Part shown: piece by piece, positions 5,461 to 52,372 of the stretch
Layout of the letters: each line of letters starts with the position of its first letter
Numbering within the stretch: position 1 is the stretch's first letter
DNA from: Mesostigma viride
Lineage: Eukaryota; Streptophyta; Mesostigmatophyceae; Mesostigmatales; Mesostigmataceae
Reading direction: 5' to 3'
NCBI GenBank assembly: GCA_009746045.1
Contig: RPFO01000065.1
Location: 634,768-698,767 of the forward strand
Length of the DNA: 64,000 nucleotides
Notes under the pieces: generated by a model
What the model saw: only the letters and a program-made list of their open reading frames with translations
Database searches by the model: none
Told to the model about the DNA's origin: nothing
Made by a program: the position numbers and the translations under genes

Positions 5461-5464
5461 AGAC

Positions 5465-6028
5465 ATGCCCCGAATGCTCCGTCATATCCTCGGCGTCCGC
5501 TACCAAGAACGCCGCACCCGGGCCGAGCTCTGCTGCGAGCTCCCTCTTGTCACCCATACCATCCGACACCGCCGCCTCCTCTTTGCCGGCCATCTTGCCC
5601 GCACAGACCAGGTGAATACCGATGTGGGCCCTGCCGGGGGGCTTAAGACGGGCCAACCAGGTAGACACCTCCTCCTATGGCAGGGTCCCCTTGTCCCATC
5701 ACAACCTACTGGCAAACTTGCGCGCGCCGGGCACTGGCGCGGCGCGACCCGGACCTATGTGACACAACTGCTTGAAGATGCAGGGCTTCTGGGACTATCC
5801 GTACTCCGCACCCGCATGATTGACAAGAAGAAATGGGCTGCCATCTGCGATAAGCACCTTCCTGAGGGGTATGCTCCTGTTTTCTCCCCACGGGCCCCGT
5901 GGCCCATTGCTAGCCAGGGTAGAAGTCCGCAGGTGGAGGTTCTTGGTCCTGAGGATAGCCGCTACACTACCGCCTCGTCTGCCATTACAGTAGAGGACAG
6001 CTCGGATGAGGATTACATCCCCATCTAG
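5465..6028 (+). pseudogene. 3' end of a LINE ORF2 (post-RT C-terminal region)
   Basis: A 187-residue open frame with the C-terminal signature of non-LTR retrotransposon ORF2 proteins: RHRRLLFAGHLARTDQV, then LLEDAGLLGLSVLRTRM and DKKKWAAICDK. The same blocks recur in the LINE fragments at 17.8-18.3 kb (QRRLQLVGHLARTNQV; GLGLSVIWKKMMDKAKWAQV) and 48.9 kb (QRRIAFVGHLARTS). Polymerase motifs are absent, so this is a 5'-truncated insertion. It runs directly into the start of the ORF1 element at 6071 without an obvious (AATT)n tail. Confidence 0.75.
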
Positions 6029-6070
6029 TGCTTAACTAGTAGATGGGAGACCACGAGCCACGAGGTAGCC

Positions 6071-7484
6071 ATGGCTGACGGCGGCGCTCATAACTTTCAC
6101 GTTTGAGCACTCGAATTCAGCTGTGAATATCACTATCGCTTCGTCTTTCTAAGACGCACATGCTGATATAATTTTCCGAATCTATTACGCAATATATGAC
6201 GAGCAAACGCCCCTCGACGCAACGCAGTTTGGCGGATGCGCTCGCCCATGACAATGCGGCAGCTGAGGCTGCCGCTTCGCCAGATCCGGCGGCAGGCAGC
6301 GGTGACACTAGTCGTGCACTGGTGGTCGCCCAGCAACCTCCCGGACTCACTGCATCGCCATCGGCATCGCCTGACCCTAAACGCGCCCGCTCAGCCGACA
6401 AAACCGGAGGGTCTTCACGCCCCTCGGAACCGCGCTGTCGGCTCCAACCTTTCCAGGTCGATGATTACGACTGGACCACCATTTCTCCGAGCGATGCTAT
6501 GCATCACATCTTCTTCGGGGACTACGCCTCGCTTTACGACCTGTGCCTCCATCTCCACGCCACCGGACGCCTCCTCGTCACCGACGGCCGTCGCTGGCAC
6601 AACATCAGCCAGCTGTTCGGGTGCCCTCGCCCCCAGCTCCAGCATGCCGTCCTCAACTCCCTTCTCCAGCGCTCTGATATGGCGAGATCTGGGCTCCATC
6701 CATCTCCGCCCCCGCATTCCGTTCCATCCTCATGGAAGCCTTCCAGCAGCACGTGACCCCCCTTGCTGCCGACGCAGCAGCAATGGGGGGCACGCTGGCT
6801 ACTGAACTTCCTCACATTTCCACCGCCGCCGCCTCCACCTCCACTGCCATTTCCGCCTCCACTGCCAACATCAAAGCCCAGCTCCTCGACCTCGACCAAC
6901 GCCTTCAAGCCACCGCCACCGCCCTTGAGTGCTTGCATGACACCGCCGGCCTCACCGCCCAGGCGGTGAAGGACATCGCCGCCCAGCCGGCACCTGCTGG
7001 CCCGGCCGGCGATGCTCCCTCCACCTGGGCGGACTTGCTTAAGCATCACACCACCTCCACCACCTCCACCATCACGGCACAACTCAAGCAACAAGCCCTC
7101 GACCTTCGCGTGGAAGCCGACATCGCCAGGCGCAGCCACAATGTCATCGTCAAGCACTTCGACCAGCCGGCAGGTGAGACCTCCACGAGCCTTCTTGAGG
7201 CATTTAAGCGCGACATTTTTGCCCCCATGGTACTCACTGGTGAGCTGCGCATGTCGGCTGTCCGCCTCCCCCGCGCGCGGGGGAAGGCTGGCCCGGCACC
7301 TGTGCTCCTCACCTTTAAGTACATGGCGGACAAGCTGGCGTTCCTTAAATGCCGCAAGAAGCTCTCGAGGACTCGCTTCACGCTGGACGACGACTTGACC
7401 CTGGCCCAGCAACAGCGGTGACGCGAGCTATGGCCGACCTATACCTTCAGCTCCGGCAGAGCGCAGGGGGGAAGCCGGTATACT
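6071..7484 (+). mobile_element. ORF1-only LINE-like element, copy A, 5' part
   Basis: Starts at ATGGCTGACGGCGG, a 5' sequence shared with copy B, where it occurs twice (50169 and 50184). It contains a 5' UTR and an ORF1, then is interrupted at 7484 by an LTR retrotransposon. The element resumes at 15689 with no ORF2 between ORF1 and the 3' UTR. Three copies (A, B, C) share this arrangement, which argues for a non-autonomous family rather than chance deletion. Confidence 0.75.
6196..7484 (+). pseudogene. L1-type ORF1 protein of copy A
   Basis: An RNA-binding ORF1-like protein. The frame 6196-6690 (MTSKRPSTQRSLADA onward) carries a low-complexity N-terminus and a conserved block around WTTISPSDAMHHIFFGDYA. 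After a frame change, 6732-7421 carries a coiled-coil-like Ala/Thr-rich segment. The RRM/C-terminal part follows: HNVIVKHFDQPAGETSTSL, LLTFKYMADKLAFLKCRKKL, TLDDDLTLAQQQ. After an in-frame TGA the homologous tail RELWPTYLQLRQ follows, as in L1 ORF1p, and it is cut by the LTR element. Copy B aligns throughout. The frameshift and stop mark it as decayed. Confidence 0.75.
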
Positions 7485-15688: not shown

Positions 15689-16748
15689 ATACTGGAGGGG
15701 GGCGGTCATCCACGTTGACCACAAGCCCTGGCAGCCCCCCCCTGCCACCTCAGACTAGGGAATATATATTACGGCGAGCAGGGAATATATATTAAAAATA
15801 TAATTACTTACAGCAGAGTGAAATCACTCAAACCAAAGCAAACGCCCAGCTATAAACCTATATACAGAGCCATGTCAAAGCTCTATACTACCATAAGACC
15901 AATGGAAACGCCTAACGGGATGAACCTAATAGCCCTGCTGCACCGCAAAATCAGCCCGCGTACGGCGGAGCATGATGTCAGCCATGGCCCGAGTCAGCGC
16001 CACCGACAAGCGCTGACGCCAATATGACGTCCAGGTCCGCGCCGACCATGGGGCCCGCTGGCCCTCCAGGTCCAGCCGGTCCTCCCGGAGCCGGCAACAC
16101 TCCTTGAAGAAGGCGGAGGTCAGGGGCCCCATGGCACCAAACTCCTCCAGGACAAAGGGCACCACACGATGGTGCCCGACGTCGCCGTAGGCCAGGAGCT
16201 TGGCCCGCTCCGCCCGGTCCGCCGTGTAACCTGCCGTGAGGGAGGCCCCAGCCACGTGGCTAAGAGCCAAGGGCCGCGCCACCGAAACGTCAATAAGCAG
16301 AAGGGAATATATATATAACCAGTAGTGTAGATTAGTCAGGCTTAGCCTAGCATGAGGCCCACGCGCATGTGCGCCCATAATCGCCCCCATGGATGATGCC
16401 TTAAGAATTTAGCCACGCCATGCCTATAATGGGACCCCCATGGATGTTGCATTAAGAATTTAGCCATGCTATGCCTATGCAGAGAGATGCTCTCTGTCGA
16501 GAAGCCATGCCCTAGCTCTTGTAAAGCCATAATGATCTTCCCCACCTATGACGGGCTCCCCTTAGCTGGGAGTTGCCCGAGACTCTGGGTGGTGCAGGTG
16601 CCCTAGTGCACCTAGAGCAAGTGTTGTTTACATTCCCACCCTTGCAGGAAGTAGCCTAGAATGTATTATAGGCCATATGCCCCTTCTCAGGGATATGTGC
16701 TACAGATACTCCCAACGGAGTTATGTTTCTAATTAATTAATTAATTAG
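15689..16748 (+). mobile_element. ORF1-only element copy A, 3' part and 3' UTR
   Basis: Resumes at the target duplication with the end of ORF1. The segment matching 'CATCCACGTTGACCACAAGC' also appears in copy C at 47927 with its ORF1 upstream. After removing the insert at 15769-16301, the 3' UTR matches copies B and C: CAGTAGTGTAGATTAG, GCATTAAGAATTTAGCCA, then GATATGTGCTACA. It ends in the hairpin CTCCCAACGGAG (about 16710) and (AATT)n at 16731-16748. Confidence 0.75.
15769..16301 (-). pseudogene. Inserted retroelement fragment with RT-associated C-terminal domain
   Basis: Absent from copy C at the same site and flanked by the duplication AGGGAATATATA (15757-15768 and 16302-16313). The minus strand encodes a fragment with AKLLAYGDVGHHRVVPFVLE, EEFGAMGPLTSAFFKE and QRLSVALTRAMADIMLRR. 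This resembles a domain I associate with the C-termini of algal reverse-transcriptase proteins. No RT core is present. It is most likely a 5'-truncated retroelement insertion in opposite orientation to its host. Confidence 0.5.
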
Positions 16749-16894
16749 TGCTTAACGGTTGGGGGATGATGCAGACGATATTTGTTTAAATTTTTGTGTT
16801 ATTTTTCTAATGAGATTAGCATAGTACTCCGTGGCATGCCTTTGCGCATGACACGCAAGTACTTACTTACTTACTTACCTAGACAGCTAGCGCA

Positions 16895-18356
16895 CGTCAA
16901 GTCATCAACCAAGGCAGGGAACACATTGGTATATAGTAGACCTGGTGAGTCCCCTTTGCACCTTGTGCTGGTGGACTTCATCAAAGCCTTCGATTCGGTT
17001 TTCTGGCCTGCGCTTTGGGACATCCTCGAGTTGTTCCGGATCCCCCGCCCCCTGATTGCTGTCATCCGCAACCTGTATGAAGGGTCCACCACTTAGGTGC
17101 GCACTTCTTACGGGACCACGCCCCCATGCCCTTTACAGAAGGGTGTGTGGCAGGGCTGCGTGCTGTCGCCCTACCTGTTCATTATTGTGGTCGAATACGT
17201 AATGATTCAGGCGCACAAGCGATTTGCCCGCATCGTGGGCAGGGAACCAGGAGTGCAGGTTGCTAACAAATTCTGGCATGGCGGTGCGGACACGGAGATC
17301 TTCGGCTGGCAGACATCATCTACGCAGACGACACCACCCTCTTCGAGGACACTGAGCACGTGCAGACATGGCTTGACTGCCTGGCTATCGAGGCCCGTGC
17401 AGTGGGGCTTGAGGTCAGCAAAAAGACAGAGGCCCTGGCGGTTGGGCTCACCAACTCACCGCCGCCCCTCTATCTCCTCGACGGCTCTCGAGTCCTGTAT
17501 CGGGACCGCGTCAAGCTGCTGGGCAGCCTGCTCCCCAGCTGCGAGGTTGATGTGGACCATCGCATCTCCCTTGCCTGGCACGCTTTACGCCAGTACCGGG
17601 CCCTGTGGCGCAAGCCCCTGGGCAAGATCGAGAAACAGGACCTGTTCTCAGGTATGGGGCCGAGACGTGGACCCTCACCGCCGACCTGGCCCGCAAGCTG
17701 GACGGCGCGGTCACCAACATGCTGCGTTCCATTTTCAGAGTAGGATATGCTGCTCATGTCCGCAATGAGGACCTGTACCAGGGCATGCCCTATATCACCA
17801 GCACCATTAAGCAGCGACGCCTGCAGCTAGTAGGGCACCTAGCTCGCACCAACCAGGTAGACACCTCACGTACGTGGCCCCCCCGCAGGACTGCGACCAG
17901 CCCAGCCTGGCCGGCACCTCCTGACGTGGGCCGGGCCCAGTGATGTTAATTAATTAATTAATTAAACTCGTGCTCCCGTTGGGGAGTCACGGAGCACCGA
18001 AGTGCTTTTAATCCCTGTGTGTGCACTACAGGAGAAAGGGCAGAGACCCCCAGTCTCCTTCATGCCAAAGGCATGCCACAGCTGCAATCGGGCGCGGCTA
18101 GCTAAAAGGACAGGCTAACGATCCGGCAAACTGTGGGTGCAATAAGACCAGTGATGTTAGACGCCGCAAGGCCCGCACCTTCAAAGAACAGCTAGTAGAG
18201 GATCGACATGGGGGGCCTAGGCCTCTCCGTGATTTGGAAGAAGATGATGGACAAGGCCAAGTGGGCCCAGGTCATAGAGGACAACGAGCCCCCCCCAGTG
18301 GGGAAGCGCCCGCGTGTGCAATCCCGTGGGAGGCACGCCAGACAGCTACCCTAGGG
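16895..18356 (+). pseudogene. LINE reverse transcriptase and C-terminal region, frameshifted
   Basis: Non-LTR reverse transcriptase, broken by stops and frame changes. Visible RT blocks in order are LHLVLVDFIKAFDSVFW (first catalytic Asp), an in-frame TAG near 17094, LQKGVWQGCVLSPYLFI and, in another frame near 17320, YADDTTLFED (catalytic pair). The connection region YGAETWTLTADLARKLDGAV follows, then QRRLQLVGHLARTNQV. After the SINE-like insert is removed, the frame runs through FKEQLVEDRHGG and GLGLSVIWKKMMDKAKWAQV to a stop near 18354. No endonuclease domain is present, consistent with 5' truncation. Confidence 0.8.
17949..18147 (-). mobile_element. SINE-like insertion inside the LINE
   Basis: About 200 bp inserted in the LINE ORF and flanked by a perfect 12-bp target duplication CCAGTGATGTTA (17937-17948 and 18148-18159). 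In minus orientation its 3' end reads TGACTCCCCAACGGGAGCAC and then (TTAA)n. This matches about 30 nt of the host LINE's own 3' end at 18483-18533. The other end does not show a clear A/B-box promoter. Sharing the 3' tail with a LINE is the usual sign of a SINE mobilised by that LINE. Confidence 0.75.
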
Positions 18357-18835
18357 CAGCGTGCGGCTGTCTAGATAGATGTTGTAGTTAGAATGCTGTT
18401 AGATAGATGTAGTGTGTAGCTGATGTAGATAGATTAGACCGGTAGGACTGTTTGCACCCATCCATCCATCCATCGGGGTTAATGCTCCGTGACTCCCCAA
18501 CGGGAGCACGAGTCTAATTAATTAATTAATTAATAGTAGACCGCATCGGTATAGACATTGCAAAAGACTTTGAACAAGAAGACTGTTGTAGAAGACTGCA
18601 ATACTTGTATAAATAAACTCTATGCTTGTCAAACAGCCTTGATAATCACCCCACATGAGCGCTCTGCCAAAGGTGGCCATTCTCAGTGGGCACCTGCCAC
18701 GAGGGGGGTCACATGATATCTGTACCCCCCTCAACGAGATCACGCGCGAATCAACAATGATTTAACTGGACAAACATCTGAAGCACCCCCAACTTAGGCA
18801 CATATATATGCTTAGGCACACACACATGTACACGC

Positions 18836-30817
<11,982 letters not shown>

Positions 30818-31153
30818 CTGGTGTACGCCACAGAGATGCAACCAGGCAGGGGGGGGGGGGGGCGGGGGGGGGAACAGAGCAGAGGTGATCAAGCGGCGAT
30901 GAGAGAGTGATATGGTGGGGACATTGGCTTCCTGTGGGTGATTATATGTTGCCCGGACACCAACGGCCAGGGTCATAGTCACTGCCATTGTCAAGGCGCA
31001 GCCGTTGGAAGAGGCTGGGTGCATCGCCTCTGATACAACGTCTGCTTGCAAGCAATTTGGCAGGCACGCTTGCAGGCACCAGAGGAATGGTGGCAATTCC
31101 CTTGGAATTCAAGGGTCCTGTGCCACTCACATGGGAGGATTGGTAATGTTTGT

Positions 31154-32021
<868 letters not shown>

Positions 32022-32060
32022 GAATGAGGATGCCAGGCAAATCAGCTGTCGGTACACATA

Positions 32061-32291
32061 CAGTCATTCACGCCTTAAGTTGGGTTCGTGGTTTTTGAGG
32101 GGTCAACCCAACTTAAGGCGTGAACCCAACTTAAGGCGTGAATGACTCTACTAAATTCTACTAATTTGAACTAAAGATACTAAAACATACTATTCTGAAC
32201 TACTTTGAACTTGGAACGCCGGAATTCAATTCGACCCAACTTAAGGCGTGAACCCAACTTAAGCCAACCCAACTTAAGGCGTGAATGACTG
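32061..32291. mobile_element. Mariner-like MITE
   Basis: 231 bp with perfect terminal inverted repeats of at least 25 bp starting CAGTCATTCACGCCTTAAG and ending in ACTG, flanked by TA on both sides (32059-32060, 32292-32293). The inner sequence carries extra copies of CCCAACTTAAGGCGTGAA near 32100-32145 and 32235-32290. CAGT termini with a TA duplication fit Tc1/mariner-type MITEs. No coding capacity. Confidence 0.8.
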
Positions 32292-32293
32292 TA

Positions 32294-33713
32294 CCGGCTT
32301 GGGGGGCTCTCCAGGGAGGGGGACATCAGTTGCTGGCGACAGCAACACTTGGCCCGGCCCGGCTCGCCTCAGCAGCGCCGGATGTATACCTGCAACAACA
32401 TGGATAATCGTGATATTCGAAGAGCGGTGATAGGTGGCGTGTGTTTAGAAATTGGTCAAGAGCTTCTTAATTGTCACCTGCTAGCCTCGCATGACTTAAC
32501 TTAACGGAAAAAATCGCCATGCATACCGTGTTCGCGCCGAACGCATCTCTTCAGAAAAAAATGGGGATCGCCGTCGGCTTTCCGCAGCAAGTGCACTCCG
32601 CCCGCTCGTCCGAATCCAATAGTGGACAGTGGGTCGCCTACCCCCCTTGACGTCCACATTTACAAGGTACGAATATATTGTATGAGCTAGAAGTGACATG
32701 TCCACCAAATCCGCCAAGAAGTTGCATAATTGTGTTCCCGTCCAACTTCGGCCGCGTCAGTGGCATTTACCGCGTCACATTGAAGCCCAGAAGCCCGACA
32801 GATATGAGCCTCTTGTAACTTAGGATAATCCATCGCTCATTTTCACGGTTTCAAACGCGGGCACCGTTTCATGCTTTGCAGGGGGGAAATAGTATTATAA
32901 CCAAAGGGCCTAGTGTGCACGTTGTGGTGTGATGCAGTCCGACAAAATGCCCTTGACCTTAGCGCATTAGTTGAAGGTGAAAATCAAAGCGGAGTAATAA
33001 GATATTTTTTATGCGTGGTAAGCAGTGCGTGCTTACATATATGATTGTGTCCATGTTGTAATACTTGTGGTCTCATGGATAATGTAATACTTGGCTGCGG
33101 AAATCTCCCGTTTTTTAGCGTAATTCACTAATAATTTGTAAGGGGTCGGCTATGGCGCTACATACTAGCGATAGTGATCGGCAAAAGTTAACTACGGGCA
33201 GATGCAATGAAGGCAGTTATTCTGTCTGCCGATATCGGACGTGCCGGCATTAGCATTAACGGTAGCTTGAGTTGGGTGTTTTCGTATGGCAGATCTCCTG
33301 TAGCGCACTATGGCGACCGGGACCTGGACGCCGCGCCACGGGGGTGCTATTTTGGAAACCATCTTACCTCGGGGAAATGGTAACTTGGGCCCAACGACGC
33401 GACAAAACTAAATTATGGCTGCACGATGCTGGCATGGGAAGCTATTGGCCGAGGCAGAGGGTTATTACAATAACTTCTCTGGTATCCAAATGCAATCCAC
33501 AATATACCATTTGTCACAGCTTGCAATTCCTTGCATTTTATAATACATCCGCAGCAAGGGCTTCATTAACCGCTCATATAGGGGGCAAATTCCTGGACCA
33601 ACACTTGGTATGAGCGACGGGTTTACTTCAATGGAGGTCTATTATTCCCACAAGTTGTAAAATTGGCAAGCGTCTTCTCGCAAAAAATAGGCTACCTTTA
33701 AAGTTCCGAAACC
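32294..33713. other. Intergenic region upstream of the CH-domain gene
   Basis: No gene or repeat is recognised. It should contain the promoter of the plus-strand gene starting at 33714 and perhaps the 5' end of the minus-strand gene. An in-frame TAA lies 15 bp before the chosen ATG. Confidence 0.4.
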
Positions 33714-40627
<6,914 letters not shown>

Positions 40628-41055
40628 GGGCTTGGATTTTTTATGAGGGCCCTGGGGTCGCCCTCGCATAGCAAGGCAGTGGAACCCAACCACAACGCAG
40701 GTAGTGTGGGCCGCACGCTTATATTGACTTTTGTGCATCCATGGCATCCACCAGATATATGGGGGCTCATGCGACCTTACGCTGTATGGCCATCCAACCT
40801 GAGTGTATGTTAGAATACAAAGTACCTTGTCGAGGTTACACAGGGGCTTCATGAGGTATGGGTCATTAGAGGTGTGGCAGATACTCCAGCATGCCTGGTG
40901 CTCGACTCAGGGTGAGGGGGCGTCTGATTTCGGCACCTATGTGGGCCTGCAGAAAATTCGCACGGTTATGGCTGAGTTCCTCCAAAAGGTGCCGAATCAT
41001 TTGCTCTGGAAGTGGGGATCAGACAACTACAATTCAATGTATCTTAAACAATGTA
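40628..41055. other. 3' flank of the CH-domain gene
   Basis: Presumed 3' UTR and spacer. No further gene recognised, and no clear polyadenylation signal could be assigned. Confidence 0.35.
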
Positions 41056-41436
41056 GGGCCTTTCCACATTTGCTGCCGTCCAGGCGCGAATTGGGAGGAC
41101 TCGGATTGGTCCGGGCCGGAAAAATAGGTTTGAGGTTTAATCGGCGCGGCGAAATAGCGGTGAATTGATCGGGACCTCCTTTCCACAACCAGATCCGATC
41201 CGTACCGTCCTGGCGCTTTCCCCGCCGGTTTTTACAACTCGACCTACCTTTCTTGACCCTAATTCTGATCGGAACTGGCCGGAACTGCTCTTTTGCAGTT
41301 CCGGGAGTTCCACCCCAGTTCCGGTCGAAATTAGAGGTCGCGACCTAATTGGACGGTCAAGTGTGGAAACCTCTAGTTCCGGAAGCGGCCGAATTAGGAC
41401 CCTCGCTGCCCGGAACTGACGAATGTGGAAAGGGCC
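41056..41436. mobile_element. PIF/Harbinger-like MITE
   Basis: 381 bp with terminal inverted repeats of about 15 bp, left GGGCCTTTCCACATT and right (reverse complement) GGCCCTTTCCACATT. It is flanked by the 3-bp duplication GTA (41053-41055, 41437-41439). Contains several GGAACTGGCCGGAAC-like inner palindromes. No coding frame. A 3-bp duplication and GG-starting termini suggest Harbinger-type, but no transposase is present to prove it. Confidence 0.6.
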
Positions 41437-41713
41437 GTAGTTGTCTCACTTTGTGTAACTGCAGCAACATTTGTGACCTGTGCCGCACAGGTCTGTAGCT
41501 AGATCAATGCGCTATAGCTGCTGGCTGTAGCATGGGATGATCAAACATGCATGTGTGTGCACATATCGAGCCAGCTAGCTAATCTAGTGATCTTGTGAGC
41601 TATAGGGCATGATCCAATTAATTGGTGATCTCCGGTATGATGCTCCTTGCCGATTCAGAGGAGGAATTTAGATTCATGTATCCGCATATCATAGAGACAA
41701 TCCGCATATAACT

Positions 41714-41850
41714 AAAATTGGTGCGAGAGGTCCCCAGTTCGATTCCGGCCTGGATTCATTTGCAGATCGCGTTTTTCCGCGTTTTCCGCGGACCGGCACT
41801 GAACGCAAATGGTTTTCACCTTTGCGGCGTGCCAAATCAGAATATAACTT
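41714..41850 (+). repeat. tRNA-half SINE-like repeat, copy 1
   Basis: Begins around TTGGTGCGAGAGGTCCCCAG, then TTCGATTCC (T-arm/B-box-like), and continues to TTTTCACCTTTGCGG. Shared with 42336-42465. No A box or full tRNA cloverleaf, so this is not a tRNA gene. Confidence 0.6.
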
Positions 41851-42335
41851 GATAGTGATTTCCTTTGTTTTTAATTGCCGTCAGGACCCCCTCCATGCAG
41901 CTCTTCCTACAGATTGACAGCCACGCAGCTCCCACGGTCTTGATTTGCCCCTTCGATCCTCCGGCATCCAGACTCATGCGGCTATATGGGCCTTGATAGG
42001 GGTCTCCTGTCACGTATGTTAGCTATGTCAACGAGACAACTGGAGCGCGCAGGCCAGAAATCTGGAGAATGCGGACCATGCATGGTACGTAGCTTGAGCG
42101 TGCCGTTATCTCATCCGCGTCTTCGATCGTGGATTGTTCAGGATGATGGATATTTAATGGAGATCTCGCGTGCAGACACGTGTGTAGTACTCCTACACAC
42201 AGATCTCGAGTGATTTATCTAGTACCAAATCCGAAAGGCTTGCATCACTCCCCGGACAGGAGAAATTTTGCGGATGACTGTAGGTGTAAGTTGGCGATGC
42301 CATGGTAACCGGAGACGTCCGTCCTATTGTCAGCA

Positions 42336-42465
42336 AAATTTGGTGCGAGAGGTCCCCAGTTCGATTCAGGTCGGATTCATTTGTAGATCGCGTTTTCCGC
42401 GTTTTCCGCGGCCCGGCACTGAACGCAAAGGTTTTCACCTTTGCGGAGTGTCTGATCAGAATTTA
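42336..42465 (+). repeat. tRNA-half SINE-like repeat, copy 2
   Basis: Second copy of the repeat at 41714-41850, with the same GGTGCGAGAGGTCCCCAG head and CCGCGTTTTCCGCGG core, and about 10% differences by eye. Confidence 0.6.
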
Positions 42466-42744
42466 ATGGAGATGGATGTCGTCCGCACACAACAGTGGGG
42501 CCGGTACTGGCAGTCATGCAAAACTGACAGTAGGTCAGTCGCAAGCTCCATGGGGAGTTGCGACTAGGTACTGGGGCCGGGTTTCGACGACGTCTGCGTG
42601 AGGTACGCCGTCGGATGTCAGAAATGCTATCAGTGGCATTTGGTTCACTTGCGCCTGCGTGAGCTACGCTGGCGAATGTCAGTATTGCTACGGCAGTACA
42701 CTTGGCGACGGATGTCGGAATGCTGAATTAATTGCTATAAGTGC

Positions 42745-43076
42745 GTGGGCTTTTGGGAATTACTCTCTGCTGAGATGCCATGTGTACACCAGCTATACGG
42801 CCTAGCCACATACCCTCCACCCCATATGTCATGCAGGCCTTCTAGGCCCTCTCCTCAAGCCCCCCCTGGGTGCCTGTGCTTGTTAAGGAGGCATGAACCA
42901 TCATGGCGGTGCAGGTGCACCTTGTGCACCCAGAGCAGGTGCTAGTTGTACATCCTCAACCTGCAGGTTGTAGCCCTGATTGTATTACAAACCCATAGAT
43001 GGCCCTTTCTCAGGGCTATGTGTTACATATGCTCCCAACGGAGCTATGATTTTAATTAATTAATTAATTAATTTTG
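42745..43076 (+). mobile_element. Solitary 3' UTR of the ORF1-only/LINE family
   Basis: Only the 3' end is present: GGTGCAGGTGCACCTTGTGC, then GGGCTATGTGTTACATATGC, the hairpin CTCCCAACGGAG (about 43032) and (AATT)n to 43076. A severely 5'-truncated insertion. The left boundary is approximate. Confidence 0.65.
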
Positions 43077-43828
43077 GTTCCCGCCGCACATTTGAAAGTG
43101 CTGTCCTCCGGATTTTTGCCTTAACACCGTGTGCAGTTCTTGGACGTTTGGAATCATGGCATGGCTAACGTAATGACTGACCAGCTAGACCTTTTCAGTG
43201 GTTTTCCATTTGCTCGTAAATGGTGGGAGAGCGATCGCAGCAATGGTGCTCACCACTATGTAGACACTCCCGGCCAGTTAGGCTCGAAACACACGCCCTG
43301 ATCAAGCAAGCTGTTTCCGGCCCCACCGTCTAGGTCATCTAGTCGCTCTACACGTAAGCCACTGCCATAATTTCAATGCACAAGGCTACACATTTCCATC
43401 CCCATTCATATTCATCATCCTGAACGACTCGAACACGCGGACAAGATAACGGCAGGCTCGAGCTACCCTGGTCCGGATTCTCCCGATTTCTGGCCTGCGC
43501 TGACCAGTTGTCCCCTTGATAAGTACGGCAGTTCGTCTGCGTCAGTTGCCAGGCCTGCGAATGTCAGTATTGCTACGGCGGTATACTTGGTGACGGACAT
43601 CGGTAAGCTGAATTGCTGCTGCAGTTTATTAATTGCGTCTGCATGCATGAGTTGCGCCTGCGAATGTCATACAGCATCGCTAAGGCAGTACGTGTACCGA
43701 TCGGTGACAGTTAATTAGTTAATAATGGATCCATATACGCACGGTCACTCTACGTTCGGTGCATGAGTGAACGTGAACTTTAAACTCGGAGGCTGCAGTA
43801 CGTAGGCTGCGTACCCGCCGGCCCGCTG

Positions 43829-45896
43829 GAGCTGGAGCTGTCCAGACTCCGGCTGGAGCTGGAGCTGGAGCAGGAGCTGGAGCTGGAGCTGGAGCTGGAG
43901 ATGGAGCTGGAGCTGGAGCTGGAGCTGGAGCTGGAGCTGGAGCTGGAGCTGGAGCTGGAGCTGGAGCTGGAGCTGGAGCTTGAGCTGGAGCTGGAGCGGG
44001 AGCGGGGGCTGGAGCTGGAGCTGGAGCGGGAGCTGGAGCTGGAGCTGGAGCTGTCCAGAGCTGGAGCTGGAGCTGGAGCTGGAGCTGGAGCTGGAGCTGG
44101 AGCTGGAGCTGGAGCTGTCCAGAGCTGGAGCTGGAGCTGGAGCTGGAGCGGGAGCTGGAGCTGGAGCTGGAGCTGGAGCCGGAGCTGGAGCTGGAGCTGG
44201 AGCCGGAGCTGGAGCTGGAGCTGGAGCTGAAGCTGAAGCTGGAGCTGGAGCTGGAGCTGGAGCTGGAGCTAGAGCTTGAGCAGTGGAGCTGGAGCTGGAG
44301 CTGGAGCTGGAGCTGGAGCTGGAGCTGGAGCTGGAGCTGGAGCTGGAGCTGGAGCTGGAGCTGGAGCTGGAGCTGGAGCTGGAGCTGGAGCTGGAGCTGG
44401 AGCTGGAGCTGGAGCTGGAGCTGGAGCTGGAGCTGGAGCTGGAGCTGGAGCTGGAGCTGGAGCTGGAGCTGGAGCTGGAGCTGGAGCTGGAGCTGGAGCT
44501 GGAGCTGGAGCTGGAGCTGGAGCTGGAGCTGGAGCTGGAGCTGGAGCTGGAGCTGGAGCTGGAGCTGGAGCTGGAGCTGGAGCTGGAGCTGGAGCTGGAG
44601 CTGGAGCTGGAGCGGGAGCGGGAGCTGGAGCCAGGGAGCGGGAGCTGGAGCTGGAGCTGGAGCTGGAGCTGGAGCTGGAGCTGGCCGGAGCTGGAGCTGG
44701 AGCTGGAGCTGGAGCTGGAGCTGGCCGGAGCTGGAGCTGGAGCTGGAGCTGGAGCTGTCCAGAGCTGGAGCTGGAGCTGGAGCTGGAGCGGGAGTTGGAG
44801 CTGGAGCTGGAGCCGGAGCTGGAGCTGGAGCCGGAGCTGGAGCTGGAGCTGGAGCTGGAGCTGGAGCTGGAGCTGGAGCTGGAGCTGGAGCTGGAGCTGG
44901 AGCTGGAGCTGGAGCTGGAGCTGGAGCTGGAGCTGGAGCTGGAGCTGGAGCTGGAGCTGGAGCTGGAGCTGGAGCTGGAGCTGGAGCTGGAGCTGGAGCT
45001 GGAGCTGGAGCTGGAGCTGGAGCTGGAGCTGGAGCTGGAGCTGGAGCTGGAGCTGGAGCGGGAGTTGGAGCTGGAGCTGGAGCTGGAGCTGGAGCTGGAG
45101 CTGGAGCTGGAGCTGGAGCTGGAGCTGGAGCTGGAGCTGGAGCTGGAGCTGGAGCTGGAGCTGGAGCTGGAGCTGGAGCTGGAGCTGGAGCTGGAGCTGG
45201 AGCTGGAGCTGGAGCTGGAGCTGGAGCTGGAGCTGGAGCTGGAGCTGGAGCTGGAGCTGGAGCTGGAGCTGGAGCTGGAGCTGGAGCCGGAGCTGGAGCT
45301 GGAGCTGGAGCTGGAGCTGGAGCTGGAGCTGGAGCTGGAGCTGGAGCTGGAGCTGGAGCTGGAGCTGGAGCTGGAGCTGGAGCTGGAGCTGGAGCTGGAG
45401 CTGGAGCTGGAGCTGGAGCTGGAGCTGGAGCTGGAGCTGGAGCTGGAGCTGGAGCTGGAGCTGTCCAGAGCTGGAGCTGGAGCTGGAGCTGGAGCTGGAG
45501 CTGGAGCTGGAGCTGGAGCTGGAGCTGGAGCTGGAGCTGGAGCTGGAGCTGGAGCTGGAGCTGGAGCTGGAGCTGGAGCTGGAGCTGGAGCTGGAGCTGG
45601 AGCTGGAGCTGGAGCTGGAGCTGGAGCTGGAGCTGGAGCTGGAGCTGGAGCTGGAGCTGGAGCCGGAGCCGGAGCTGGAGCTGGAGCTGAAGCTGGAGTT
45701 GGAGCTGGAGCTGGAGCTGGAGCTGGAGCTGGAGCTGGAGCTGGAGCTGGAGCTGGAGCTGGAGCTGGAGCTGGAGCTGGAGCTGGAGCTGGAGCTGGAG
45801 CTGGAGCTGGAGCTGGAGCTGGAGCTGGAGCTGGAGCTGGAGCTGGAGCTGGAGCTGGAGCCGGAGCTGGAGCTGGAGCTGGAGCTGGAGCTGGAG
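43829..45896. repeat. GAGCTG hexanucleotide array, about 2.07 kb
   Basis: About 340 units of GAGCTG with sparse variants (GAGCCG, GAGCGG) and recurring interruptions GTCCAGAGCTG. Open on both strands in most frames (Glu-Leu, Gly-Ala, Ser-Trp; Gln-Leu, Pro-Ala, Ser-Ser), which explains several very long spurious frames. It is embedded in intergenic repeat DNA, not in a gene. Confidence 0.95.
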
Positions 45897-45925
45897 AACG
45901 GCCGGGATTTGTAGGACTTCAATGC

Positions 45926-46027
45926 GACGCTGATTATGCCAGACCAAGTGTCCATTGACGACGCTGATTATGCCAGACCAAGTGTCGATTGACGACGCTG
46001 ATTACGCCAGACCAAGTGTCGATTGAA
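45926..46027. repeat. 34-bp tandem repeat, three copies
   Basis: The unit begins GACGCTGATTATGCCAGACC and directly follows the hexanucleotide array. Confidence 0.9.
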
Positions 46028-46410
46028 CACCCTGGTGCAGACTTCTTACACGTGTCTTGACTGGGTTATCGGTTTTATGCCACACGTTGCATTTGATGTT
46101 AGCAGTCCTGTGTTTTGATATAGTACTCAATCGGGAAAAGCGAGGATTGCAAGTTTGCAACGGGTGCGTGCCAGGCGCATGATGAGCCTGCGCAGTTGGC
46201 CGCCGACTCTAAAAACACCGCATTACCGGCAATATGGCACAGGCATGGCCTGTATATATTAGCACTGGGACGAGATCGCCTTTGACATCAACGCACCTGG
46301 CTACTGGACTCGCCGCCCAGGAGCCTTCATGGAAGACGTGTTTTTCGGCACGCACGCCTCGCTTGTAGCCCTGTGCTCGCACCTCATTTCCCACCACCGC
46401 GGCCGCTGGC

Positions 46411-46997
46411 CACTACATTTCGCCACCGCGGAAACCCAATTTATGCGAGAATGTGGTTCCGTCAATACGGCGGGGGTTACAAATTCAATTTCGAAGTTCG
46501 GCACCGTCGGATACCAGTAAAGCAACACTTGTTATCTAGAATCGCGCCATTTGGCATCAATTGGCCAGTTCTGAAAATTCGATGAAATCTCTAGTCGTTG
46601 GTCGAATCTTTCCCTCCGATTCCGATGACGAAATTTGAGTACGAATTTCTTAGTACAGTCCACCGTTTTGTTCGGTTCAGTATATTCCCACGCCGCTTGC
46701 TGACCTGACGGAGGCCGAATTCGTACTGAAGACTAGCGAAAGTGCGCTCGATACTAAACATTGCTACTTCCGAGATGTCTGACGAAATTCCTGCTAGGTC
46801 CATGCTTTGGTACTGGACGGATGCTGAAAATCACTGTGGCTCTGTCCGAACGAGGAAAATTGTCAGAAATCTACTCTCGATACGAACGTAACGAAATTTC
46901 CTAGTATCTGACGCTCGGAGACCTGCCACCGTTTTCCCCTACTAGACCGAACCACATTCCCCGCTAAAAAAGGTGTCCTAGGCGGCGAAATGTAGTG
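46411..46997. mobile_element. CACTAC-ended MITE, copy 1
   Basis: 587 bp with inverted ends CACTACATTTCGCC and GGCGAAATGTAGTG. Shares its right sub-end (CCCGCT(A/G)AAAAAGGTGTCC) and internal motifs (CGAAATTT(C/T)...AGTATCT) with 47252-47728. No coding capacity. The CACTA start suggests CACTA/EnSpm type, but a clear 3-bp duplication is not seen. Confidence 0.6.
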
Positions 46998-47251
46998 CCA
47001 GGTGGCCAGCCTGCCGACCCCACCGAGGCTCTCCTCCCGATAGGCAGGCTGGGCGGACCTGCTCAAGCATGCACGTCCACGCCACCTCCACCACCTCCAC
47101 CAATGATCGCGGCACAGCTTAAACAACAAGCCCTCGACCTCCGCGTGGAGGCCGACCGCACCAAGGGCAGCCACAATGTCATCGTCAAGCACTTCGACCA
47201 GCTGGCAGGTGAGGACTCGACGACTCTTCTTACGGCATTTAAGCGCGACAT

Positions 47252-47728
47252 CACTACAATACGGTTCGTAGGAGACGCGAAATGAGTGAGAATGTTACCC
47301 GAGCGGTAACGAGGATTCGCACCGTTGATTTTAACATATGTTTCTTTTTTTGCGCCATTTGGCGAGCATCGACTGGAGCCTGAACCTAGCGGGGGGAATC
47401 GTGCGGGGGAATCTTGCGGGGGAATCTTGCGGGGAAAAATTCCGAACGTGAATTTAGCGAAGTCCTACATTTTGCTTGGGTACACGGTACTACAGTTTCG
47501 TAACTGAAAATTTTCTGTAGTTGCGTTGGTGTTTCGTACGTTCCGCTGAAATTTTCGTGTTCAGTACCCAGATCACAATTTGATCCGGGCGCAAAATGAT
47601 TGGCTGTACGGTAAGAACCAAAAACGAAATTTTAGTATCTAAGTTCCGCAGCGCTTGCTGAATTTGCCCCGGAAGCCCGGGGGCACTTTCCCCGCTGAAA
47701 AAGGTGTCCGCGGAAGCGTATTGTAGTG
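47252..47728. mobile_element. CACTAC-ended MITE, copy 2
   Basis: 477 bp with inverted ends CACTACAATACG and CGTATTGTAGTG, inserted in ORF1 of copy C between GCGACAT and ATTCTTGCC. In copy A the uninterrupted site reads GCGACATTTTTGCC. At most a 2-bp AT duplication is visible. Confidence 0.65.
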
Positions 47729-48432
47729 ATTCTTGCCCCCATGCACAATTTACTGGTGAGCTGCGCATGTCGGCTGTTCGCCTCCCCCGCGCGCGGGGTA
47801 AGGCTGGCCCGGCACCCGTGCTCAGACCTCACCTTTAAGTACATGGCGGACGCGAGCTATGGCCGACCTACCTCCAGATACGGCAAAGCGCAATGGGGAA
47901 ACCGGTATACTGGATCGGGGGGGACGTCATCCACGTCGACCACAAGCCTTGGCAGGCACCCCCAGTCTAGGGAATAAAGCAGTAGTGTAGATTAGTAGTA
48001 AGGCTTGGCCTACCACGCGGCCCCAGCGCATGTGCGCCCATAGTGGCCATGGATGATGCATTTACGAATTAGCCACGCCCTGCCTATTATTAATGGACCC
48101 CCCATGGATGGGCTGCATTAAGAATTAGCCGTCAGCCCTGCCTATATAGAGAGTCACGGCTCTCTGATAAGAAGCCATGCCTAGCTTTTGTATAGCCGCG
48201 TTGATCTTCCCCCACCATGACGTGGCTCCCCCTTCGCTGGGTATAGCTAGCTTGATAGATCATGGGGGTGCAGGTGCCCTGGTGCACCTCGAGAAAGTGT
48301 CGTTTACATTCCCACCCTTGCAGGAAGTAGCTTAGAATGTACTAAAAGCCATATGCCCCTTCTCTGGGATATGTGCTACATTTACTCCCGGCAACGGAGT
48401 TCGATCTGTTCCTAATTAATTAGTTAATTAAT

Positions 48433-48789
48433 GGCCTGTATGCAGGACTAAGCGGTTGGTTGAAATGTTGTGGCTGCATGCGGATGTTCAGCAGGCAGTT
48501 AGAGCAGTTATGGCGTGCAAGCCGGCAGTAATGGCGCAGGCCAGGTTAGCAGATCGATGTCGAACAGTTGAACAGTAAATTTTTGTGAGAATATATTCAG
48601 TGAGAATGATAAATTATGGACGTGAGATCGGCATGCAACATAAGGAAAACCCCAAAAAGAAGAAGAACCCTAAAGGAAATAATAGTAATCTGACACGGAC
48701 ATGCAAGGATCCCCCCCCACCTTTCCCACTGAAGACACCATCCCGGCACCCTCCTTAAGGAAGCTTTCGAGCAGCACGTGACCCCCCTT
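48433..48789. other. Spacer between retroelement copies
   Basis: No gene or clear repeat boundary recognised. Includes a purine-rich stretch near 48640-48690. Confidence 0.3.
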
Positions 48790-49445
48790 ACGAGGCAACA
48801 CTGGCAGCTAAGCTCGACGGCACGGTTTACAGGATGCTCCGACAGTGCCTGAATGTAGGGTTTTCCCAGCGTAGACCTGTCATTAGAGTCTTTTCTTCAG
48901 GGTATGCCTGGTATTTCGGACGAGATTAGGCAGCGTAGGATAGCATTTGTAGGACATCTTGCTCGCACCAGCCATGAGGTCGACACCGCCCTGGGTACGT
49001 CTGGCCGGCCCCCATGCAGCGGCTTGGCCAACGTACCACTTACCAGGGCGGCATATTTTGACCTGGCCTGGCCCCAAGGACATTCTCAGGAAGCGAGGTA
49101 AACCTGCCATGAACTACGCCCAGATGTTGTTTGCCGACCTAGTGGTCCCAGCTCAGTTTGAACACCCGGCATCCACTCCCTCTCCCTCAGTTCTTAATGG
49201 ACTGCCATGCAGAACAAGAATTAGCGGTGGCAGAAGATTGTCCAGGCTCACACACCAGCCCCTGTGGGCAAGCCCCCCCCCCCCAAGAGGAAGGGGCGTT
49301 TTGCTGAGTAGTGTAGTTAGGATTTTCTAGACTAGATAGCTTAGAGTTATAGGTTAGTTCGATTACGCGGCTTCCTCCACCTCCACCCCCCACCCAGGAA
49401 TATGTGCTACATGATCTCCCCACGGAGGCATGTTATAATTTAATT
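48790..49445 (+). pseudogene. LINE ORF2 C-terminal fragment with 3' tail
   Basis: Frames read LAAKLDGTVYRMLRQ, then ISDEIRQRRIAFVGHLARTS, homologous to LARKLDGAVTNMLRS and QRRLQLVGHLART of the LINE at 17.7-17.9 kb. The fragment ends with a CTCCCCACGGAG hairpin (about 49411) and an AATTTAATTTAA tail. 5'-truncated and frameshifted. Confidence 0.65.
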
Positions 49446-50168
49446 TAACATAGATCTAGATTAACCACAATCTAACTTAACATTATAGGGGATGGGACAT
49501 ATCTAAAGTGCACTTTTCTGGAAAACAGACCTGTGAATGGGATAAAAATCCAGTTATGCTTGGGAACCATAAATATGTGAAAAAAAAATTTTCCAGCCAC
49601 TTGGGGGTGGTACTACCCCCCAGCATGACCCAGTTATGAGCTAAAAATAGATAAAGACGCTATTTTTGGCCGATTTTTCCTAGGAGACTGGGCAAACCAA
49701 AAGTGACCAAACCACAGATTTTCCTAAAATCCCCACCCTTGCAAATAAATCTGGCTACTCAGGACCACAAAATAAGCACGTTTAGACTATTTGATGGGGT
49801 TTAGCCCAAAACACGTATTTTTTTGGTCCTAAAAAAATAAATCAAATAGTAGACACATGCAAAAATTCCAGTGATGATATTTATAGTAGGCCTAGGGTGG
49901 GAATTTCACTCTCACAAAGTTTGAGCTCATTCTGAGCACGTTTACTCATGTTGATGGGTGTAAACATGCAAAAACAAAATGACAGAAAATCCCGCTTATG
50001 AGCACAAACACCAGACCTAGCTATTACACCCTTAGTAGCCCACCACCAACTGGGCCAAACCAAGTCAAATTAATTCATTTATGATGTTAAAAAGCTTGCC
50101 ACAAAATCCCAGGTCATTCTGAGCTAGTTTGGTCATAATACAGCATGGCAGTGTAGGTAACGAAAATT
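49446..50168. other. AT-rich unassigned segment
   Basis: About 720 bp, clearly richer in A and T than its surroundings. No open frame of note, no terminal repeats and no recognised element. Confidence 0.4.
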
Positions 50169-52217
50169 ATGGCTGACGGCGGTATGGCTGACGGCGGAGT
50201 TCAGATCTTTTGCATCTGAGCCCCAAATTCGGTCAGACCACTCGCATTCGATGCGCTTTTTTGAGACGCACCCGCCAGTATAATCGGTTACGGCTGAAAC
50301 GCAGTATTGCGGAAGTTATCACGTGACAGGCAGCTATGACGACCTCTATTAAGCAAAACGGGGTTTGGAAAAGGAGCTTACCGGCTCCCAGCCCAACCCG
50401 CTCGCCATCGTTCTTGCCCAGCCGCCTGGGCTCGCCAACCCACCGCCAGCAGCCCCATCGCCCAGCGCCTCGCCTGAGCCCAAGAAACCCTGCCACGCTC
50501 GCAACTGGAGCAAGTTCCTCCCCGGCGACCGACGATTCGCCTGGACCGTGTGGCAAGAATTGTCGCCGCAGGAATGCATTGAGGTTCTCCAGTTCCTCGA
50601 ACAGGAGCGGAAGCTCTTCGTGCCCAAGGGGGGGGCGGCTATCGACTACAATGGAGACATGTCCTGGCTCTATGCTTTGGACGAAGTACAACAACGCCTG
50701 ATTATCTTGACCAGCCAATTCCAGAGCCACCTCTCCGACCTCACCCGCACGCTCCGCACCCCAGCCCCCGAACAGCCGGCAGCCCCATCGGCTTCCTCCC
50801 TCTGCAAGGATGACCTCCGCGCAGTGCTGGAGGAGCACGTGACCTGGCCGCTGGCCGAGCAGCTGCATGACATCGCTGAACACCACGCTCAACAAGGTCG
50901 AGGCCCGGGTCTCCAACGTGGAAACCAAGGTCGTCCACAAGCTCCAACCCCAGTTCACGGCTCTACACACCGCGGAGCAGGCTTCGGAAAAGCATGCTAC
51001 ACTTGTCTCTCGCCTTAACCAGGTGGAGGGAAAGTGTGGCGTGCTCCTGAAGAAGCTTGAGGCCATCACCGCCCACACCGAGGCCCTGGCCACACAGGTC
51101 CCCAAGATAGCGGAGCAGACGGCCACCATTGCATCCCAGCCACCCCGGCAGGATGCTGGCGACCTCCCGCCGCTCTCCTACGCGGACCTGCTGCGGTCAG
51201 CGACCGCCTCCACCACCGACGCCATCGCCACAAAGCTCCAGGAGCTGGAGAACCACCGCCAGGCCCAGCAACGGGAGGTCACCGACCGCGCTCGCCGCGA
51301 GTGCCGAGTGGTGCTACGTCGCTTCCCCCAGAAGCCAGGTGAGACGTCAACCTCTCTTGCTGACGAGCTCAAGAACCAGCTTCTTACCCTCATGGGCCTG
51401 GTAGGTGAGGTAGCACTGAGCGGGTGCCACCGCCTTCCCCACTCACGGGACAAGGCGGCTCCCCCACCAGTCCTCCTCACCTTCCCCTCCCCTGAGGATA
51501 AGCAGCGGTTCCTCTCTCGTCGCAAGCGGTTGCACGACCTCACCTGGACGCTGGATGACGACCTCACCCCCGCTCAGCAACAGCAGCGACGCGACCTGTG
51601 GCCGGAATACCTCCGCCATAAGCAGGACCCCCAGAAGCCCAAGGTGTACTGCATGGAGGGGCGGGGACCTGATGATCAACCACAAGATGTGGACGCCCCC
51701 AGCGGGCTAGAATAGCAATAGCCCTAGATTGTAACCCTTGGCGTCACTGCCGCTAAGGCAGCCATGCCTAGACTATTTGCCTAGCTGTGCCAACACACCT
51801 AGTCACGTGCCGCCAACGCACGGTCCACAACCAGCCATAGCCTAGTACAGCCATGCTACGCCCTGGCTATGTTTAGCCAAGCCATGCCTATAATGGGACC
51901 CCCCCATGGATGTTGCATTAAGAATTTAGCCATGCTATGCCATGCAGAGAGATGCTCTCTGTCGAGAAGCCATGTCCTAGCTCTTGTATAGCCATGCTGA
52001 TCTTCCTCCCTCACAGGCATGCTCCCCCCCTTACCCGGGCATAGCGTGATAGACCATGAGGGTGCAGGTGCCCTGGTGCACCTAGAGCAAGGGTAGCTTA
52101 CATTCCCACCCTTGCATGAAGTAGCCTAGGATGTATTAAAAGCCATATGCCCCTTCTCAGGGATATGCGCTACATTGACTCCCAACGGAGCGATGTTGAT
52201 AATTAATTAATTAATTA
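50169..52217 (+). mobile_element. ORF1-only element, copy B, apparently full length
   Basis: About 2.05 kb from the duplicated 5' motif ATGGCTGACGGCGG to the hairpin ACTCCCAACGGAG (about 52182) and (AATT)n at 52217. It contains a 5' UTR, ORF1 and 3' UTR in direct succession, with no reverse transcriptase. It is the least interrupted copy in the window. The 3' UTR (51720-52217) matches copies A and C. Confidence 0.75.
50336..51715 (+). pseudogene. L1-type ORF1 protein of copy B (one frame change)
   Basis: Nearly intact ORF1. The frame from about 50365 carries the N-terminal block (NWSKFLPGDRRFAWTVWQEL). It changes frame near 50870 and runs to the stop at 51715. The second part contains a heptad-like coiled-coil region (LNTTLNKVEARVSNVETKVV and on), then the RRM-like VVLRRFPQKPGETSTSLADE, LLTFPSPEDKQRFLSRRKR and the CTD WTLDDDLTPAQQQQRRDLWP. 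This order of coiled coil, RRM and CTD is that of L1 ORF1p, an RNA chaperone that coats retrotransposon RNA. The single frame break may be real decay or a sequencing error. Confidence 0.75.
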
Positions 52218-52372
52218 CAGCATGGTCACAGCTGCCAACCTCATGCCTGGTACAACATGGCACGAGAGGTGACACAGGCAGCTACCCCAACCAAGCATGT
52301 CCCATAAAGTTATATCATGGCCAAACAATGAAAGCATTGTCATGCAGTTTTCATAACACAATTAGGCCTCGT

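Follow-up and report, generated by a model that had tools for sequence, protein, structure and literature searches.

A 3' hairpin and AATT-type tail shared by LINEs and elements without a reverse transcriptase in Mesostigma viride

Long interspersed nuclear elements (LINEs) of three families in the streptophyte Mesostigma viride, here termed B, C, and D, end in a hairpin followed by a short AATT-type repeat tail, and the same kinds of ends are found on elements that lack a reverse transcriptase (RT). Our analysis makes it highly probable that these stringent-type LINEs recognize their templates by the hairpin at the 3' end and that this hairpin is exploited by short interspersed nuclear elements (SINEs) and by elements with open reading frame 1 (ORF1) but no ORF2 (ORF1-only elements, A-type and D'). 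The elements were examined in a 64,000-nt stretch of assembly GCA_009746045.1 (contig RPFO01000065.1, positions 634,768 to 698,767), hereafter the window, and in the whole assembly (440 Mb, 2243 contigs). Among solved structures, PDB 1gk8, a Chlamydomonas protein, gave the best score for the RbcL of this assembly, which makes a green-algal host most likely. A first-pass annotation, to which positions 15,689 to 52,217 of the window had been shown, had proposed a stringent-type template signal. This proposal is supported by the retention of the hairpin genome-wide, by covariation in the form found on A-type elements and LINE C (A/C form), and by sharing that is limited to hairpin and tail in the B and D cases; recognition itself is what we infer from these observations.

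Hairpin architecture and coupling to the tail

All seven hairpins listed in the first-pass annotation are present in the window (Table 1). Some lie a few bases from where they had been placed (49411 corresponds to 49416-49427 and 52183 to 52179-52190), and the one at 48386, CTCC-CGGCAAC-GGAG, belongs to an A-type end that has decayed and whose loop holds a 3-nt insertion. The small stem-loop described there exists as part of a larger hairpin, composed of a lower stem, a 1-nt bulge on the 5' side, a 5-bp upper stem, and a CAAC loop. Folding of 14 ends with RNAfold predicted one architecture for A, B, and C, in which stems of 3-6 bp (lower) and 4-5 bp (upper) are combined with an unpaired nucleotide on the 5' side and a CAAC-type loop; the lower stem is poorer in the A1 copy at 16.7 kb, and the bulge is shifted by one in A4. 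Ahead of the family A hairpin stands a second one (CATATGCCC...GGGCTATG). Stem length had been thought to vary while pairing is kept. Pairing is indeed kept; however, the 25-nt cores of A, C, and B can be aligned gap-free, so the CTCC/CTCCC difference can be read as a base-pair change in a stem of constant length. Family D carries a different hairpin, CACGTGAC-GCA-GTCACGTG, with an 8-bp stem, a GCA loop, and a sequence unlike the CAAC form.

The non-random feature is the coupling of the hairpin pattern to the tail, not the bare pattern. CTCC-N2-10-GGAG occurs 20 times in the window against 14.57 expected, a count reached by 12 of 100 shuffles and hence not above chance, and (AATT)3 gives 11 overlapping matches in five arrays, with none expected in 100 shuffles. 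A covariance model built on 27 cores, including several taken from the window, was run on 264 kb and returned 13 matches with an expect value (E) <= 3e-4, the next match standing at E = 0.11. All 13 have an AATT, AATTC, or AATTT tail on the 3' side of the hairpin; the decayed 48.4-kb copy was missed in this search. Rfam at gathering thresholds gave 0 matches in the window, and no tRNAs were found there.

An (AATT)n tail, annotated for every end, is present at most of them, with (AATTT)n in the 49.4-kb copy and likewise in LINE C, and (AATTC)n in some A ends. A-type copies with otherwise similar 3' ends differ in tail unit, (AATTC)n or (AATT)n (loci L034, L035, L037, L038, and L053 versus L036, L039-L043, and L046), and LINE D in L032 has a GATT/GATTT-like tail. 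Neighboring elements stand tail-to-tail on one AATT array, or are inserted at or near an existing tail, at L005/L006:1476-1530, L007:1437-1530, L025:9153-9252, and L032:1791-1960, and an insertion preference for AATT arrays is possible. At L025:9287-9352, (AATT)7 lies between inverted words AATACAGGAAGACTG, where no hairpin family was recognized.

Genome-wide retention and covariation

The first-pass annotation had named absence of the hairpin outside the window as a result that would refute it; thousands of copies were found genome-wide, with controls near zero. The A/C skeleton occurs 9,840 times in its exact CAAC form (4933+4907; reversed-pattern control 0/0) and 5776+5731 times with any loop (control 0/0). 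The B skeleton occurs 7,938 times (3917+4021; control 1/0). The D hairpin, also standing before AATT-type tails, occurs 4,350 times (2164+2186; control 0/0), and CTCCCAACGGAG followed by AATTAATT was counted 2137+2217 times (reversed pattern 0/0), a few sites being counted twice through the variable gap. A further pattern, AATTAATTN{3,9}RNCCGTTGGG, gave 9+9 matches against 2+3 in the control; its gap is too short for A/B ends, and it was not used.

Since the outer letters of the A/C rows are set by the search pattern, the free positions provide the fair test of covariation. Among 100 matches listed of the 9,840, base pair L1 formed in 96 and base pair U1, with the bulge allowed in either register, in 98. 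Both were paired in 94 copies, against a mean of 54.9 after shuffling of the arms, and none of 20,000 shuffles was as high. Reduced to 20 distinct A/C types, both pairs form in 15 against 8.3 shuffled (p 0.00035). An alignment of 27 distinct 25-mers, consisting of the 20 A/C types, 4 of the 11 distinct cores with other loops (7 omitted), and 3 B rows, has 94.8% of its pair cells standard against 31-56% in slid structures, and two-sided changes occur in 5 of 10 pairs. The genome-wide covariation check that had been suggested therefore came out positively for the A/C form, in its two-sided changes, and not for B and D, which are near-invariant. The loop had been described as nearly constant, and this holds: 100 listed any-loop matches comprise 82 CAAC, 9 CCAC, and 9 other loops, that is, CAAC/CCAC in 91, and the stem positions beside the fixed pattern vary.

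LINE families with hairpin ends

The LINE families B, C, and D each have an ORF1 and an RT-bearing ORF2. Protein searches with their RTs gave 26,475 first-look candidates for LINE B (104 scored), 19,021 for LINE C (88 scored), and 15,856 for LINE D (150 scored), with many equal scores in each case. The RT domain RVT_1 was recognized in LINE D (E 1.4e-24), LINE C (E 2.5e-23), and the RT of locus L014 (E 2.4e-10); the LINE B copy in the window, which matches L014 at 93-98% in three stretches, gave E 0.0011, under the Pfam cut-off. The LINE D RT matches L1 ORF2p (E 1.5e-11) and R2 (E 2.1e-11). An Exo_endo_phos match was obtained in LINE C only, at E 9.8e-5 and 22.7 bits, below the 24.5 cut-off. 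None was found in LINE D or in the LINE B piece, yet LINEs D and C are 50-56% identical over the N-terminal part. Identity between LINEs C and D is 50-84% in RT blocks, 50-56% in the endonuclease (EN), 25-41% in the linker between EN and RT, and 35% at the extreme C terminus, the linker being among the least conserved parts. The C-terminal part of these elements presumably resembles RTE/RTEX-like elements.

In L031, LINE C extends from an 11-bp target-site duplication (TSD) at 967 to the C hairpin and its (AATTT)n tail and contains an ORF1 of 345 aa followed by ORF2. Because the TSD stands before ORF1, LINE C has both ORFs; ORF1 lies upstream of ORF2 in one of the three copies fetched, the other two (L029 and L030) being truncated. 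LINE D has an ORF2 of 1222-1223 aa and TSDs of 11 and 10 bp (L032 and L033), with hairpin D ~60 nt past the stop in L032, and two of six upstream pieces (L056 and L060) hold a long ORF1. For LINE B, an ORF1 upstream of ORF2 was found in one of two upstream pieces (L062). A bipartite, two-component retrotransposon, suggested by RT elements that looked as if they began at the endonuclease and by ORF1-only elements ending in like hairpins, was considered and rejected, as the L031 TSD precedes ORF1 and LINEs D and B have an ORF1.

Several internal features of these LINEs were also observed. Copies share an internal start at the endonuclease start in LINE C (L029:5498 and L030:3112) and in the ORF1 C terminus in LINE D (L032:2522 and L057:~1602, minus orientation), as if these were 5'-truncation hot spots. 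In a LINE C subfamily, the RT frame is cut to 615 aa in 26 of 29 equal-scoring matches (L029:2324-4168); in L029, the EN lies in another frame and the frames meet at a C-rich stretch, which may reflect a common frameshift or a programmed one. One LINE D RT match falls in an 11437-aa open frame (region G000:C113:5729561-5729940) that is probably a stop-free repeat array.

What passengers share with their LINEs

SINE B, of ~200 bp, is a retroposed copy, having a TSD and no RT, and further copies lie at L016:7818-8019 (97.5%), in L025, and in L002. Its hairpin is identical to that of LINE B in 21 of 21 nt, and the 150 nt upstream score 14 against 14.9 shuffled. SINE B and LINE B share a 3' end attached to otherwise unrelated bodies, as the partners of stringent-type pairs do. 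The same pattern is seen in the D family: in L018, the ORF1-only element D' carries the LINE D hairpin without an ORF2, the two hairpins agree in 19 of 19 nt, and the 150 nt upstream score 14 against 15.9 shuffled.

LINE C and the A-type ends agree in 18 of 24 nt in the hairpin, with the L031 hairpin carrying one mutated base. Upstream, their scores of 17-18 against ~15 fall within the shuffled range; BLAST finds 34-65 nt alike, including TATGTGCT adjoining the hairpin. Twenty ends were fetched by hairpin type. Among the 15 of types ATA, GTA, TGA, TTA, AAG, ATG, and ATT, 14 have an A-type 3' untranslated region (UTR), and L045 is cut off just upstream of the hairpin; among the five of types GAT, GAG, and GGT, L048, L050, L051, and L052 have the LINE C 3' UTR, and L049 matches in the hairpin only.

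ORF1-only elements and exchange of 3' modules

An ORF1 lies ~380-410 nt before the A hairpin in five of seven A-type loci (L001-L004 and L006-L008) and was not found there in L002 and L004. In the window, the A4 element has an ORF1 at 50353-51712 that spans two frames, and is therefore broken in this copy, and no ORF2; its last ~360 nt occur in at least 40 places at 99-100%, itself included (40 scored of 4254 first-look candidates). In the copy at 16317..16747, no RT or ORF1 was recognized, and a TSD search gave nothing convincing. At 5453-7484 of the window, an RT C-terminal fragment is followed on the same strand by an ORF1 of the ORF1-only type, whose 3' end was not identified.

A search with the D' ORF1 placed 42 of 95 listed matches at one identical score, with open frames of 457-513 aa. 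The structural model of this protein has an overall predicted local distance difference test score (pLDDT) of 56.7 and a predicted template modeling score (pTM) of 0.32, and ~130 C-terminal residues reach a pLDDT of 73-87. Below E 0.001, its fold matches in the PDB are limited to two structures of human L1 ORF1p, 2yko (1.7e-6) and 2ykq (3.3e-6), with template modeling scores by target of 0.49 and 0.46, and the ORF1-only elements are accordingly predicted to encode an L1-type ORF1p fold.

In the ORF1 tree, LINEs B, C, and D group together against all ORF1-only copies used (100/100). Columns under 70-80% occupancy were removed from alignments and trees, and the L002, L007, L008, and L001b copies, although in an earlier alignment, were left out of the tree with LINE B. 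The parent LINE of the ORF1-only lineage may belong to a family beyond the sampled B, C, and D. An origin of D' from LINE D by mere loss of ORF2 was considered and is unsupported, the ORF1 match reaching only E 0.002 and the tree separating the two. Ratios of nonsynonymous to synonymous substitution (dN/dS), computed for pairs with at least 60 aligned codons, are 0.05 for L005 versus L008, 0.12 for L005 versus L003, and 0.40 for A4 versus D', with other pairs up to 0.67 and 0.75. Selection on the ORF1 of ORF1-only elements is indicated, not proven, by these values, and part of the signal may come from ancestors with an ORF2.

In its ORF1, A4 is 60% identical to D' and 50% identical to L003 (A3), whereas its 3' UTR is 92% identical to that of L003. 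A4 and D' group together in the ORF1 tree at 78/81 with LINE B included and at 53/64 without it. From this single conflict between 3' module and ORF1 (A4/D'/A2), which is of moderate strength, the ORF1-only lineage appears to have exchanged 3' modules. A broader picture, in which one genome holds two unrelated recognition hairpins and one long-lived ORF1-only lineage, with a selected ORF1 unlike that of the LINEs, has swapped 3' modules such that LINE D moves some members and a CAAC-hairpin LINE others, is tenable but tentative, and we would sooner doubt it than assert it. If it is true, ORF1-only elements would be specialized parasites that choose a host LINE by hairpin capture and bring their own RNA-binding protein.

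Mechanism and alternative explanations

In the mechanism we propose, the ORF2 protein of each LINE, with its endonuclease and RT, would bind the hairpin at the RNA 3' end, nick genomic DNA, and prime cDNA synthesis within the AATT-rich sequence next to the hairpin; if the enzyme slipped on the final 4-5 nt, the tail would grow as (AATT)n, (AATTC)n, or (AATTT)n. If UnaL2 and ZfL2 are a guide, the region of ORF2 between EN and RT may read the stem and loop. The B and C hairpins are variants of one architecture and D is a different hairpin; elements without an RT would move in trans through the hairpin, SINE B by LINE B and D' by LINE D. The enzyme that moves the ORF1-only A elements is most likely that of LINE C, which is a guess, since A matches LINE C in part only.

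The first-pass annotation had attributed the hairpin to one reverse transcriptase. A single RT serving all elements through one hairpin is conceivable in that one enzyme might accept both the B and the C hairpin, which have the bulge and the loop in common. However, at least three LINE families end in hairpins, three families with long open RT frames and many equal-scoring copies are present, the D hairpin is unrelated in sequence, and SINE B and D' each match their own LINE; we judge a single enzyme unlikely. The likeness of the ends could also have arisen through common descent, or through end-swapping by template switching, with no part in recognition for the hairpin. A-type ends are alike over up to ~350 nt, which is descent, and as many copies are recent, invariance is expected. 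Yet LINE D and D', like LINE B and SINE B, have only hairpin and tail in common, A/C stems change on both sides, and the loop stays CAAC or CCAC in 91 of the 100 listed matches while neighboring stem positions change, so that this explanation seems quite improbable.

It is in our view very improbable that the hairpin serves 3'-end formation, transcript stability, or RNA transport rather than template choice by the RT. Its place ~5-12 nt from the tail in the ends seen would suit such a role, but transcripts of SINEs, ORF1-only elements, and LINEs need not share a polymerase or processing and nevertheless share family-specific hairpins, and a general signal would hardly be expected as two unrelated sequences tied to particular LINEs. 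A target or recombination site at the DNA level, formed by palindromic (AATT)n or inverted arms, is hardly credible: although neighbors stand tail-to-tail on one AATT array (L005/L006, L007, and L025), the six computed TSDs, 10-12 bp long, differ from one another and show no constant AATT site, several copies have the 5' truncation typical of target-primed reverse transcription, and the tail lies 3' of the hairpin in all 13 covariance model matches.

Several results weigh against template recognition by the LINE enzymes as we propose it. Covariation is confined to A/C ends. The B stem is identical in 92 of 100 listed copies and the D stem in 96 of 100, with three of the four departures breaking a pair; little covariation appears in B and D because these stems are nearly invariant, and the D case consequently rests on sharing. 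Within the A/C form, L1 is broken in 4 and U1 in 2 of the 100 listed copies, and for U1, if the bulge may slide, the 20 distinct types show no significant excess of pairing (19 versus 17.0, p 0.094). Two of five measures on the 27 cores are weak, with 16 of 500 shuffles as high for two-sided pairs and 94 of 500 for further pair types, and the three B rows are the sole source of three of the five two-sided pairs, so that these reflect few independent events. The link between A and LINE C is weaker than those between LINE B and SINE B or LINE D and D' because the lower stem and tail unit differ.

Which features of the RNA are read by a LINE enzyme is an open mechanistic question. The two unrelated hairpins, each carried by a LINE and a passenger whose 150 nt upstream are otherwise unlike, provide a ready set for assays, together with compensated stem variants, thousands of copies, and candidate minimal elements of 19 and 21 nt. 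The ORF1-only lineage would also allow a test of whether ORF1p helps its own RNA to compete for the RT of another element.

Comparison with known systems

The principle of stringent LINE/SINE recognition is known, since pairs with compensated hairpins have been reported in monocots (L1 with ZmSINE2/SINE2_SBi) and pairs in Chlamydomonas (L1-1_CR/SINEX-3) (PMC3747384). In those plant and algal L1 pairs, as here, the partners share a 3' end, of ~50-80 nt, and the monocot hairpin stem has compensatory changes; they differ in having a UCU loop and a CGAG flank, Table 3 of that report includes no AATT among algal L1 tail repeats, and its available sections describe neither a second unrelated hairpin per genome nor ORF1-only carriers (PMC3747384). 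In eel UnaL2, a single bulged nucleotide in the stem is reported to be needed, and the tail hairpin is bound by the part of ORF2 that lies between EN and RT (PMC4176376). UnaL2 and the zebrafish elements ZfL2-1 and ZfL2-2 resemble the present elements in that LINE and partner share a 3' hairpin and short repeat tail, and UnaL2 also in the single bulged stem nucleotide, which the CAAC hairpin has as well. They belong, however, to the L2 clade of fishes and have different hairpin sequences, and the sections of the source drawn on here describe no ORF1-only partners (PMC4176376).

The ORF1-only copies sampled here group as a single lineage, separate from LINEs B, C, and D, and carry LINE-type hairpins. 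HAL1 (half-L1) elements use relaxed poly(A) recognition. Like the ORF1-only elements, HAL1s are non-autonomous and code only for an L1-type ORF1p, but they arose several times from L1, according to the part of the account used here (PMC5753468). Among the titles listed in a literature search, none names such an AATT-hairpin system; subscription papers and preprints were outside its reach, so it may have been published elsewhere.

Features of the window

Table 1 Hairpin-ended elements in the window, with the evidence for each. Positions are those of the window.
Feature	Positions	Strand	Evidence and notes
A-type element, 5'-truncated or SINE-like	16317..16747	+	75-88% to other A-type 3' regions
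A-type hairpin (ACAGATACTCC-CAAC-GGAGTTATGT)	16702..16726	+	core 16709-16720; tail (AATT)4 at 16731-16746; covariance model E 3e-4
LINE B, 5'-truncated, RT C-terminal region and 3' UTR	16943..18532	+	10-bp TSD ATAGTAGACC at 16933-16942 and 18533-18542
SINE B, inside LINE B in opposite orientation	17949..18147	-	12-bp TSD at 17937-17948 and 18148-18159
B hairpin of SINE B	17968..17992	-	core 17973-17986; tail (AATT)4; covariance model
B hairpin of LINE B (CCGTGACTCCC-CAAC-GGGAGCACGA)	18487..18511	+	core 18493-18506; tail (AATT)4 at 18516-18531; covariance model, fold
A5-type element, tentative 5' limit (only an 8-bp repeat, TTTGGTTC)	42647..43072	+	75-83% to A-type 3' ends, ~42900-43072
A5 hairpin (ACATATGCTCC-CAAC-GGAGCTATGA)	43025..43049	+	core 43032-43043; tail (AATT)5 at 43054-43073; covariance model, fold
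Decayed A-type end	47977..48433	+	core 48385-48399; 70-85% to other A-type ends; AATT tail interrupted
LINE C 3' fragment, RT C-terminal region and 3' UTR	48794..49448	+	83% to L029 LINE C; LINE B RT protein match E 4e-8
C hairpin (ACATGATCTCC-CCAC-GGAGGCATGT)	49409..49433	+	core 49416-49427; tail TATAATTTAATTT; covariance model
A4 ORF1-only element, ~2.07 kb	50149..52215	+	10-bp TSD TACAGCATGG at 50139-50148 and 52216-52225; ORF1 homologues
A4 hairpin (ACATTGACTCC-CAAC-GGAGCGATGT)	52172..52196	+	core 52179-52190; tail (AATT)4 at 52201-52216; covariance model, fold

Apart from these elements, the window contains a pol fragment of a long terminal repeat retrotransposon with aspartyl protease and RVT_1 (651-1925, minus strand) and a short TAF1C beta-propeller match just over the Pfam cut-off (26895-27656, minus strand). 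A 342-copy GCTGGA array occupies 43852-45896, ~0.8 kb from the A5 element, and further long simple arrays lie at 21196-21750 (CAGG), 31170-32021 (ACTACC), and 35147-36048 (CTCC/CTTT).

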